Source of the DNA: Muribaculaceae bacterium Isolate-013 (NCI)
GTDB taxonomy: Bacteria > Bacteroidota > Bacteroidia > Bacteroidales > Muribaculaceae
Length of the DNA: 63,122 nucleotides
Assembly (NCBI GenBank): GCA_004102785.1
Contig: SCEJ01000012.1
Span: 1-63,122 of the forward strand
Direction of reading: 5' to 3'
Each line of letters begins with the position of its first letter. The first letter of the stretch is position 1. The position numbers were made by a program, and so were the translations under genes. A model generated the notes under the pieces. That model saw only the letters and a list, made by a program, of their open reading frames with translations. It did not search any database and was not told the origin of the DNA. Shown here piece by piece: positions 57,472-60,840 of this stretch.

Positions 57472-57502
57472 CAAAGTTAGCAAAAAATTTCGCCATAGCC
57501 AA
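57472..57502 (-). promoter_or_regulatory. gap promoter (TTG-N20-TAACTTTG)
   Basis: Minus strand: TTG (complement of 57500-57502), 20 bases, TAACTTTG (complement of 57472-57479). Nearly all of it lies inside the 69-bp repeat; in the second copy the -7 element is destroyed because the match begins only after its CAA (plus strand). Confidence 0.88.
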
Positions 57503-57543
57503 CATTATAGCAAAAATTAAGGAAATATTTCTTTATTTCGCAC
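57475..57543. repeat. 69-bp direct repeat, copy A (next to gap)
   Basis: Matches 59673-59741 in the same orientation with one difference (57539 C, 59737 G). It covers the gap promoter and continues to the edge of the lipoprotein cassette. Confidence 0.95.
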
Positions 57544-57572
57544 TCTTACCAAACCCTGTTCATTTATATGAC

Positions 57573-58211
57573 TCATTTTGGGCGCTCCCATACCGGCAAA
57601 TATAAGATATAGTAGGCGAATGGGTCCGGAAAATCTACCGGGTATATTCTGTGGCTTTCGATGTCCTTTAAATCTTCTTTTGTCAGCTTATGTTCATACT
57701 GTACAAGCGGCTCCATACAAGTCAGACAGTTATAACTGTTGCCTCGTATAAGGAATTTCAGAAGATAATCGGGTTGATTATCGATCCGGACTATTCTGAA
57801 ATTTTTTGTAAATGGCAAATACTCAAATTCTGGAGTTGGCGACAAAGGTTCTGGAAAGACCATATCGCCCATCACGACCCGACTATAAGCAGCCGGTTTC
57901 AGTGCAAGTAGAACATCGCTGCTTTCCCATACGAATAAACCGGCACTATCTGATTTTAAAAAATCTTTTTCGGTGACATTGTTGTTGATTTTCGCACGGT
58001 CTCCATCGAGAAGAATGAACATTTGATTATTCTTTCCGATCAGTATCATGCTGTCGTCAAACTTCACGGTATCACAAATCATCATGCTGCCTCGAGCTCT
58101 TACATCACTAACATCCAGCCATTCACCTTGAGTCCTGCAACCAACGGCGCACAACATCAGCCACACGCAACAGGTTAAGGTAAACACTGTACTCTTGGAA
58201 TACGTTTTCAT
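57573..58211 (-). CDS. Lipoprotein, second of a related pair
   Basis: A 212-residue lipoprotein with lipobox LCAVGC (Cys25). No family is recognised. It shares with the upstream neighbour (58262-58915) the order MILIGKNNQMFILL / VILKSSSNNMFVLA, then NFRIVR...LIRGNSYN / NFQIVK...LVRGESYN, and a C-terminal PFAYYILYLPV / PSAYYKLYVPV, so the two are distant paralogues. The ATG at 58211 is chosen because it puts the signal peptide at the N-terminus. Its AT-rich codon use differs from most of the window and points to transfer. Confidence 0.75.
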   Translation of the reverse strand: MKTYSKSTVFTLTCCVWLMLCAVGCRTQGEWLDVSDVRARGSMMICDTVKFDDSMILIGKNNQMFILLDGDRAKINNNVTEKDFLKSDSAGLFVWESSDVLLALKPAAYSRVVMGDMVFPEPLSPTPEFEYLPFTKNFRIVRIDNQPDYLLKFLIRGNSYNCLTCMEPLVQYEHKLTKEDLKDIESHRIYPVDFPDPFAYYILYLPVWERPK

Positions 58212-58261
58212 TATATCCACTATGATATTTCCGAAGTGTTTAAAAGTATCTATTTTGCATA

Positions 58262-58915
58262 TCATTCCGACACCGCCCGAACAGGCACATATAACTTATA
58301 ATAAGCCGACGGTGCACAAAAAGGGATATCCGATGAGGATTCGTCATTGCTGTCGTGCTGTACCGGCAAATCCCCAATATATTGGCTGATAATTCGCGGT
58401 ATTCTATATCTATTATAACTTTCACCACGAACCAGGATGACTATAAAGGCATCGATTTTATTCTCCGGTTTGACTATTTGAAAGTTTTTATTCATCTCAA
58501 ACTCCTTATATCGAAATTGAGACACAGGATCATAAGGCATGTTAATCAAACGGCCGTATTCTTTTGGAGGGAAACATCTCATAAAACATTCATAAAAATC
58601 CAAAGAGACAATACCTGCACCGTATGAATTCACAACATCACTTTCAGTAGTCTCGTTTTTGATACTGTCAAGTAATTCAGGGGCTAAAACAAACATATTA
58701 TTGGAACTCGATTTCAGAATCACAAACTCAGATATTGAGTCCACTCCAGCGTAGTAACATTCATATGGAGCCCCTTGTATATTTTTCGTTTTGGAGACAT
58801 TGGCAATCATGTTATCCAAAAGACCAGCAGCACACGATACCACTATATTATCCAAAACACCAGCTGCACACGATACCACTACCGAAAAAAACAGACAAAC
58901 AAGTAATTTTCTCAT
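58262..58915 (-). CDS. Lipoprotein, first of a related pair, with duplicated lipobox
   Basis: A 217-residue lipoprotein. The signal peptide ends at VVVSCAAG (Cys16), and a 36-bp tandem duplication (58808-58879) repeats this segment as VVSCAAG a second time, so a second lipobox-like Cys follows 12 residues later. The mature part is unrecognised but paralogous to the next gene. It begins 23 bases after the protease gene's stop, so the three form an operon read from the promoter at 59344-59374. AT-rich like its neighbours. Confidence 0.75.
   Translation of the reverse strand: MRKLLVCLFFSVVVSCAAGVLDNIVVSCAAGLLDNMIANVSKTKNIQGAPYECYYAGVDSISEFVILKSSSNNMFVLAPELLDSIKNETTESDVVNSYGAGIVSLDFYECFMRCFPPKEYGRLINMPYDPVSQFRYKEFEMNKNFQIVKPENKIDAFIVILVRGESYNRYRIPRIISQYIGDLPVQHDSNDESSSDIPFCAPSAYYKLYVPVRAVSE
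58808..58879. repeat. 36-bp tandem duplication
   Basis: 58808-58843 and 58844-58879 are two 36-base copies with five or so differences, in frame inside the lipoprotein gene; they add twelve residues and repeat the lipobox. Confidence 0.9.
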
Positions 58916-58938
58916 CTTTTTTAGTTATAACGCTTTAT

Positions 58939-59343: not shown

Positions 59344-59374
59344 CAAAGATAGTGAATGGTCGTAGCGAAAGCAA
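59344..59374 (-). promoter_or_regulatory. Promoter of the protease-lipoprotein cassette (TTG-N20-TATCTTTG)
   Basis: Minus strand: TTG (complement of 59372-59374), 20 bases, TATCTTTG (complement of 59344-59351). It overlaps the DNA that reads as protease in the +1 frame, so promoter and coding trace conflict; the match may partly be chance. Confidence 0.6.
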
Positions 59375-59492
59375 ATTATTGAATATGTTTAAAAGCAGAA
59401 ACCTCTCATTTGCAGTGTGGCGGCTGTTGCATGTCTACCGGAGGGGGCCGGGGGAAATAAGTGTTCTTGACACTTAAACGTATGTGGGCCGG
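59375..59492. other. Non-coding remnant between cassette and gene fragment
   Basis: No intact gene. A small hairpin AAGTGT/ACACTT lies at 59459-59475, just past the stop of the truncated gene fragment on the minus strand. Confidence 0.4.
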
Positions 59493-59612
59493 TTATGCGA
59501 GGGGACGTGTGGCGGCGAATCCGGGAAGGTTGCGCCAGGCCAGGGTGCAGAAGGAGGAGGTGGGATCGGAGTTGTATTTGAGGTGGTAGCGCTCGGAGGA
59601 GAGGCCGTGGAA
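59493..59612 (-). pseudogene. 3' end fragment of the hypothetical gene at 60364
   Basis: Encodes GLSSERYHLKYNSDPTSSF, then CTLAWRNLPGFAATRP, identical to the C-terminus of the protein at 60364-60840, but ends PLA instead of PMT. The DNA of 59502-59610 matches 60373-60481 with three differences. The rest of the gene is missing upstream of it, so this is a duplicated remnant (copy B'). Confidence 0.93.
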
Positions 59613-59672
59613 TTTGGGAGTTTCGTTGAAAAATAATTTGTAAATAATTGGCTTTAACTTCCCGAGTTTGGG

Positions 59673-59741
59673 AGTTAGCAAAAAATTTCGCCATAGCCAA
59701 CATTATAGCAAAAATTAAGGAAATATTTCTTTATTTGGCAC
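59673..59741. repeat. 69-bp direct repeat, copy A' (second copy of the gap upstream region)
   Basis: Matches 57475-57543. The acyltransferase stop codon (59731-59733) lies inside it. A 10-base repeat TTTGGGAGTT (59613-59622 and 59667-59676) frames the junction between this copy and the gene fragment. Confidence 0.95.
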
Positions 59742-60363
59742 ATCCCTGCCTCAGCTCTTCAACCCGTTGTGTCTGATTCTGTGAGCCGTCGCGGTAACGG
59801 ATTATTCTGGCGGGGTTGCCCCCCACGATGGCGTAAGGAGGAACCGACCGGGTGACTACCGCTCCGGCTCCGATTATCGCGCCATGACCGATGGTAGTAT
59901 TTTTAGCGAGGATTATGGCGCGGGTTCCTATCCATACATCTGATTCGATTGTAAGCTGTGTCTTGGCTATATCACCTTGCTTACCCATCGGAATATCCAG
60001 ACGGTCGAACCTGTGCCCCCCTCCCATGACGAGTACATCCTCAGCCATCATTATGTCGCTACCCATTTCCAATATGACGTTATGCATCTTGAACCGCGGA
60101 CCTATTCCTGACTTTCCGCTGATTGATATGTTCCGCAGGTTTCCCAGGTAAGCTCCCCGGCAGATATTTGCCTTCGTAGAAACCCGCGGGTTGATCATAT
60201 GAAGGATTCCGGCACGTGTCTTGCGGAAGAAACGGCCCAATACCGGAAATGAATTGTCAGGCAGGATGTAATGCAAAGCGTACCAAGTGAATACGGCGGC
60301 AAGACGTAATGGATTGTCCATAAGCGTAGGGAGATAAGGGATGGTTATATTGTCGGCCTCCAT
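59731..60363 (-). CDS. Hexapeptide-repeat acyltransferase
   Basis: A 210-residue left-handed beta-helix acyltransferase of the LbH family, like WcaF/MaT sugar or serine O-acetyltransferases. Repeats run from about residue 58 to 190: [39 protein letters not shown], then [40 protein letters not shown] and [10 protein letters not shown]. The active-site His is probably the one in [10 protein letters not shown] near 115. Its ATG follows the stop of the upstream gene directly (TAA-ATG). It is lower in GC than the flanking genes. The substrate is unknown. Confidence 0.87.
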
Positions 60364-60840
60364 TTAAGTCATGGGACGGGTGGCGGCGAATCCGGGAAGG
60401 TTGCGCCAGGCCAGGGTGCAGAATGAGGAGGTGGGATCGGAGTTGTATTTGAGGTGGTAGCGCTCGGAGGAGAGGCCGGGGAGGATGAAGGTGGCGCAGT
60501 TTACGGGCTGTGGCGGCTCGCTGTCGAGGGTGGCGGCCGACGACGACGGGGCGGGGGTGACGCGCTCCTCGATGGCGAGGTCGAATCCCTTGCGTGTCAC
60601 GGCCAGGGCCACTGTGGCGGCGGCCGTGAGTCCTTCCAGTCCGTAGCGGCGTATCACCAGGGCGCCGTCGGCACGGGTTGAGAATTCCACTCGCGGGGCG
60701 GTGTCGGCGCCCGGCTCGGCGGTGAGTTCGGCGGTGATGAAGCCGGTCTCGGCCGGCCCGTGGCCACGGGGGATGGCCAGGGCTGCCACTGCGGCGGCAG
60801 CGGCCATGAAAAGGAGAGTATATAGAGTGAGCTGGTCCAA
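60364..60840 (-). CDS. Conserved-type hypothetical membrane-anchored protein
   Basis: A 158-residue protein, not recognised. The first about 22 residues are a hydrophobic anchor (LTLYTLLFMAAAAAVAALAI). The rest is Ala/Glu/Thr-rich with a C-terminal GLSSERYHLKYN stretch that also survives as a fragment at 59493-59612. It lies five bases after mgtE and directly before the acyltransferase, so it belongs to the rsmA-mgtE unit. Its 3' end forms the boundary (copy B, 60373-60481) of the variable locus. Confidence 0.75.
   Translation of the reverse strand: MDQLTLYTLLFMAAAAAVAALAIPRGHGPAETGFITAELTAEPGADTAPRVEFSTRADGALVIRRYGLEGLTAAATVALAVTRKGFDLAIEERVTPAPSSSAATLDSEPPQPVNCATFILPGLSSERYHLKYNSDPTSSFCTLAWRNLPGFAATRPMT
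60373..60481. repeat. 109-bp direct repeat, copy B
   Basis: Same orientation as 59502-59610 (copy B') with three differences. Copy B is the 3' end of the intact gene at 60364-60840. Confidence 0.95.

Follow-up and report, generated by a model that had tools for sequence, protein, structure and literature searches.

Two unrelated cassettes lie in tandem between repeated flanks at the h158-gap junction of a Muribaculaceae genome

We analyzed a 63,122-nucleotide stretch of DNA, hereafter the window, from Muribaculaceae bacterium Isolate-013 (NCI) (GenBank assembly GCA_004102785.1, contig SCEJ01000012.1). The window is an entire contig (G000:C32) of a 3.3 Mb draft genome in 385 contigs. Between an orphan gene, h158, and gap lie two cassettes, X and Y, together with two copies each of two flanks, A (copies A and A') and B (copies B and B'). 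Along the direction of transcription (minus strand), the order is ksgA, mgtE, h158 (with B at its end), Y, A', a 61-base joint, B', X1, X2, X3, A, and gap (Table 1).

Table 1. Features of the h158-gap locus and its borders, with positions in the window
Feature	Position	Strand	Description
mgtE	60846..62207	-	conserved, upstream of the locus; Pfam MgtE, MgtE_N, CBS
h158	60364..60840	-	intact orphan gene encoding 158 aa; flank B forms its 3' end
flank B	60364..60482	-	3' end of h158, including the stop
cassette Y	59731..60363	-	hexapeptide O-acetyltransferase-like; begins straight after the h158 stop (TAAATG)
flank A'	59673..59741	-	copy of the gap upstream region, cut in the TAACTTTG box
joint (linker)	59612..59672	-	61 bases between A' and B'
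flank B'	59493..59611	-	5'-truncated copy of the h158 3' end
X1	58939..59346	-	putative metalloprotease tip remnant, HEIGH motif, no Rhs-like core
X2	58262..58915	-	lipoprotein (lipobox by eye), immunity-like
X3	57573..58265	-	lipoprotein (lipobox by eye), immunity-like; paralogue of X2
flank A	57475..57543	-	intact gap upstream region, palindrome 57517-57536
gap	56419..57435	-	glyceraldehyde-3-phosphate dehydrogenase; Pfam Gp_dh_N, Gp_dh_C

A direct-repeat scan of the window (45-base minimum, 14-base seeds) recovered both repeats where the original prediction, made from the sequence of this contig, had placed them. A and A' are equal at 68 of 69 bases, with one mismatch, and B and B' are equal at 106 of 109 over the span first noted (60373-60481 and 59502-59610), with three differences. 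The match between B and B' can be extended through the TAA stop of both copies, giving 112 equal bases of 119; matching is less perfect outside the 109-base span, with four more differences up to the h158 stop. Chance is excluded as the source of two such paired matches. The identities assigned to the flanks also held: A corresponds to the region upstream of gap, B to the 3' end of an intact gene, and B' to a cut-off copy of it. Nor are the repeats scattered through the genome, as the draft contains no further full copy of A or B. When 59493-59745 and cassette X were compared with the whole draft genome, we recovered self and partner copies only, the remaining matches listed being 30 bases or shorter. 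The sole other direct repeat found in the window is a pair of near-identical tRNA-Val (TAC) genes (55097-55174 and 55407-55482), 310 bases apart and ~1 kb past the 3' end of gap. Measured over 300 bases at a time, the guanine-plus-cytosine (GC) content runs at ~36-43% across X and 49-51% across Y, compared with 57-61% for the three 20-kb blocks of the window.

The two flank copies at the center of the locus are truncated. A' ends within the TAACTTTG box (TAACT followed by CCC), and A continues into gap; B' starts inside h158, without the 5' part of the gene. The joint is thus the meeting point of two truncated flank copies, and it connects two h158-cargo-gap segments. It is non-homologous, with 61 bases between the ends and the 10-mer AACTCCCAAA at both edges, the first copy of which starts four bases inside A'. 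A search of the whole draft found no second copy of the linker elsewhere in the assembly (nothing beyond 30 bases). X and the joint had no match among plasmid and phage records, and one 23-base stretch of the linker had none among viral contigs. Ten local-alignment comparisons, with 500 shuffles each, gave no convincing derivation of the linker from the gap leader, A, h158, X, or Y; the best alignment was to the reversed gap leader, and 16 of 500 shuffles were equally good. We hold it to be very improbable that two strain variants were joined in one contig by the assembly. The draft consists of 385 contigs, and short-read assembly can be confused by repeats as long as 69 and 119 bases; however, an assembler that merely took a wrong path would connect the repeats directly and insert nothing new. 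The linker has no second occurrence in the assembly, so this joint was presumably covered by reads.

Within cassette X, X1 is a 135-aa frame that carries the HEIGH motif without a core or delivery region, and we suspect that the frame is damaged. Matches to X1 occur in 2 of 295 genomes of the order, its own included. By blastp, X1 is related from its residue 44 onward (35% over 86 aa, E 2e-10) to a protease that stands behind Rhs-like sequence elsewhere in the same genome (G000:C109). There, a 376-aa protein consists of Rhs-like sequence and then the X1-related protease, with a 352-aa lipoprotein adjoining. This module (L139 4699-7449) immediately follows a transporter identified by eye as NSS-type, has an extra small frame, and is close to the contig end; by its gene content, it looks like an orphan toxin-immunity-like module. 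A third protease of the X1 kind, in G450, to which X1 is likewise 35% identical, also follows Rhs-like sequence and precedes a different small lipoprotein-like frame. The Rhs-like sequence in the C109 and G450 proteins was recognized by eye; in Pfam, the C109 protein gave metallopeptidase matches and a chance-like porin match, all below cut-off, and no Rhs profile. A 55-aa frame upstream of X1 had no match to the C109 relative.

X2 and X3 are paralogues (33-34% identical). X3 is related to the C109 lipoprotein (E 1e-8), and X2 is weakly so (E 6e-5). Among 297 genomes sampled from the family, X3 matched its own genome only, and X2 matched two, the second weakly and inside a frame reading by eye as a DHH-type phosphoesterase; that second match is therefore probably due to chance. 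On the simplest reading, X probably represents an old metalloprotease tip of Rhs type that was displaced and has no core, accompanied by two paralogous immunity-like lipoproteins. X2 and X3 may still protect against a related protease toxin. In the signal peptide of X2, a 36-base tandem duplication at 58809-58880 doubles the lipobox (VVSCAAG).

Cassette Y resembles polysaccharide O-acetyltransferases, and its role is probably the modification of a surface polysaccharide. Its matches to Pfam Hexapep profiles were below cut-off, and those to NCBIfam WcaF/WbbJ-like and other profiles were below the curated cut-offs (among the 25 of 42 matches listed). The nearest relative (53% identity) sits in a polysaccharide-type gene cluster of another genus, and the second-nearest (52%) stands alone near ligA; the neighbors of both were named from sequence by eye. 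Distant hexapeptide matches to Y are common, occurring in 290 of the 297 genomes sampled from the family. X and Y have no profile in common (different profiles or none) and are unlike in GC. The adjoining h158 had no Pfam match at E up to 1 and no NCBIfam match at E up to 0.1.

The dissimilarity of the cargos matters for a different origin of the tandem, in which the h158-cargo-gap segment was duplicated first and one cargo copy was later replaced via the flanks. Such a duplication would account for a head-to-tail tandem with a single novel joint, and for the 10-base direct repeat at the joint edges, as left by slippage or short-repeat recombination. However, a second event is needed to explain unrelated cargos with no profile in common, and we regard this order of events as unlikely.

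We examined the junction in a genus sample of 14 genomes, its own included; there was no same-species strain among the genomes compared. h158 is present in 13 of the 14, again counting its own, and the order ksgA-mgtE-h158 recurs in all 12 other loci of the genus that were compared (ksgA named by eye). gap follows h158 in three genomes (G000, G005, and G010). G010 has no cargo, its h158 stop and gap start lying 248 bases apart, and G005 has a 559-aa DUF6056 protein between h158 and gap. Hence, the interval between gap and mgtE has other content in relatives, as the original prediction had anticipated, and within a sample lacking strains of the same species, G010 and G005 do not carry the X-Y order. 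The proposal of two unrelated cargos, each within one and the same pair of flanks, is supported. Nine other genomes with h158 have different genes behind it, or have gap elsewhere; G009, whose contig breaks off behind h158 and which gave no match to gap, could be placed in neither group. Behind h158, G004 has a TPR/AraC-type regulator and two very large proteins (L033 3916-11427), and G012 has a CARDB-domain protein (L031 3640-6033).

Among 36 loci from named genomes, viewed up to 6 kb on each side, h158-gap adjacency was seen in two, apparently the G010 and G005 loci again; h158 on its own had recovered no relative when named genomes were first scanned. A tree of four concatenated proteins paired G000 with G010 (support 100) and joined this pair to G004, G008, G012, and G013 at support 85, with G005 outside. 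If this tree is right, h158-gap adjacency arose before the split and disappeared from the group of four species; a support of 85 is not strong.

That different genes occupy the site behind h158 in several species of the genus would also fit two independent cargo insertions, each with flank pieces from other species and without allelic exchange. Against this, identities of 94% between the B copies (119 bases) and 99% between the A copies place their source in the same or a very close species. Independent insertions are, in our view, distinctly improbable.

The original prediction held that a homologous exchange between flanks left both cargos in tandem. Its structure of flanks and cargos stands, but the exchange needs revision: exchange at both flanks swaps X for Y. 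Since a double exchange through both flanks replaces the cargo, both can be kept only by a one-sided event or by integration of a circle. Likewise, it takes a circular intermediate, or one joint made without homology, to explain the 61-base joint and the truncation of both B' and A'. We favor, with moderate confidence, the view that the locus is a failed replacement that left both cargos in tandem. X and Y would once have been alleles between h158 and the gap operator, one in each of two strains or closely related bacteria. A cell with one of the cargos would have taken up DNA that carried the other, along with parts of both flanks, and homologous recombination would have occurred at one flank only; we infer this homologous end from flank identity. 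The other end would have been closed by non-homologous joining, or the incoming DNA would have been a small circle, integrated by a single crossover, with the 61-base linker as its closing joint. Either route would produce h158-Y-A'-linker-B'-X-A-gap in a single step, with the truncated A' and B' meeting at the joint. The allelic past of X and Y, and the recombination route with its order and direction, are what we infer, and the data separate neither the two routes nor which cargo came second. The C-terminal ends of h158 in G005 (RPLS) and G010 (RPLT) are slightly closer to that of B' (RPLA) than to that of B (RPMT), a weak hint that Y is the newcomer. Because h158, gap, and the gap upstream region are intact, the insertion was probably cheap for the host.

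Several points weigh against a failed replacement. First, there is no X-only or Y-only allele among the genomes compared. Second, our sequence comparisons leave the 61-base linker unaccounted for, and homology-facilitated illegitimate joints usually have only a few bases of microhomology. Third, the 7 differences between B and B' over 119 bases are compatible also with an old duplication. Fourth, the homologous crossover is itself presumed, and the genome behind the joint is a 385-contig draft.

A failed replacement has parallels elsewhere. Passages of Jackson et al. 2009 (PMC2935791) on Rhs loci describe low-GC, decaying tips that were displaced and lie behind directly repeated anchor-core sequence; circular intermediates are proposed there. 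As in the tip displacement described there, the present locus has one cargo by an intact anchor and a second cargo downstream behind a fragment of the anchor 3' end, together with low GC and a downstream putative toxin tip without a core. By anatomy alone, h158/B and Y followed by B' and X reproduce this layout, whichever cargo is the newer. Unlike an Rhs anchor, h158 is small and without an Rhs profile, the cargo beside it is a separate acyltransferase gene and no toxin tip, and the second flank (the gap upstream region) is duplicated too. Since h158 encodes 158 aa without a Pfam or NCBIfam match and is not an Rhs core, the locus would work like an Rhs locus but, by its anchor, is not one.

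In arrays of immunity genes of the type VI secretion system (T6SS), homology-facilitated illegitimate recombination has been proposed, according to portions of Kirchberger et al. 2017 (PMC5361080). The route proposed in those portions shares with ours one homologous anchor and one illegitimate end, and there, too, an older module moved downstream, with immunity genes retained and the toxin gene displaced. Unlike those arrays, our locus has no T6SS gene among the proteins profiled, its other cargo is no effector-immunity pair, and its joint is 61 bases long. Orphan immunity genes in gut Bacteroidales, as excerpts of two reports on acquired interbacterial defense systems describe them (PMC12247911, PMC10470768), offer a further likeness. 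In contrast to those systems, there is no tyrosine recombinase among nine proteins profiled at 55.7-62.2 kb, and only two genes are present here, with an immunity role that is predicted. By analogy, the locus thus resembles a variant, at a housekeeping junction, of a process known from Rhs tips and T6SS immunity arrays. It would offer a readable intermediate of accessory-gene stacking, with both cargos, both flank sets, and the exact joint preserved, and would show that a process seen at Rhs tips and at effector loci of the T6SS also takes place at an ordinary housekeeping junction of gut Bacteroidales. A literature search on Muribaculaceae and hotspots did not name the family among the matches listed, a result too weak to call the junction unpublished.

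The label of recombination hotspot, also part of the original prediction, was not established. The 20 kb beside the locus (37450-57400) gave at least 16 matches each in G010 and G005 (among the best 40 of 111 and the best 40 of 134 candidates, respectively), spread over many contigs and over several distant places on one large G005 contig. G010 retains one collinear block of ~4.5 kb, with smaller collinear blocks elsewhere. Gene order around the locus is largely scrambled, and variable junctions are common in the genus. As the adjoining 20 kb is scattered in both relatives, we claim no special hotspot; the h158-gap junction is variable, not demonstrably more so than other junctions.

A mobile-element integrase was considered as the cause and rejected, as none was found among the proteins profiled at the site. 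Among the frames profiled between mgtE and gap, Pfam gave no integrase or recombinase for h158, Y, X1, X2, X3, or a 104-aa frame (attachment sites were not searched), and NCBIfam profiles gave none among h158, Y, X1, X2, and X3. A more speculative idea, which we think rather doubtful, is that the h158-gap junction is an integrase-free cassette site whose conserved flanks are reused as homology handles. If true, species and strains of the genus would swap or stack surface-modification and competition genes with gap control unharmed, in an integron-array-like behavior powered by host recombination alone.

The palindrome in A (57517-57536) has its copy at 59715-59734, and another site lies in the window at 9149-9168. 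Among gap upstream regions of 18 relatives, members of the genus share a similar palindrome by eye (~ATTAAGGAAATTTTTCCTTAAT), weak in G002 and G007; outside the genus, it is present in G018 and absent from most others. A TAACTTTG-like box, which we take to be the Bacteroidetes -7 box, follows the palindrome. In a limited literature search, the matches listed, seen as excerpts of their sources, did not describe the palindrome for Bacteroidetes. The pattern TWAMGGAAAWWTTTCCKTWA, with at most one mismatch, occurs at 27 places in 14 genomes, and a reversed control occurs at 0; the A site of the window exceeds this limit and is outside the 27. All 15 loci examined from these places lie upstream of pckA-like (11), nqrA-like (3), or citE-like (1) genes, and three further places are upstream of gap (G003, G005, and G011). 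A looser pattern matched the own genome at 8 places, compared with 2 for its control, near gap, pckA, nqrA, an NhaD-like antiporter, an sdhC/frdC-like gene, and citrate-lyase-like genes (names by eye). From these neighbors, the palindrome looks like a putative operator of one energy-metabolism regulon.

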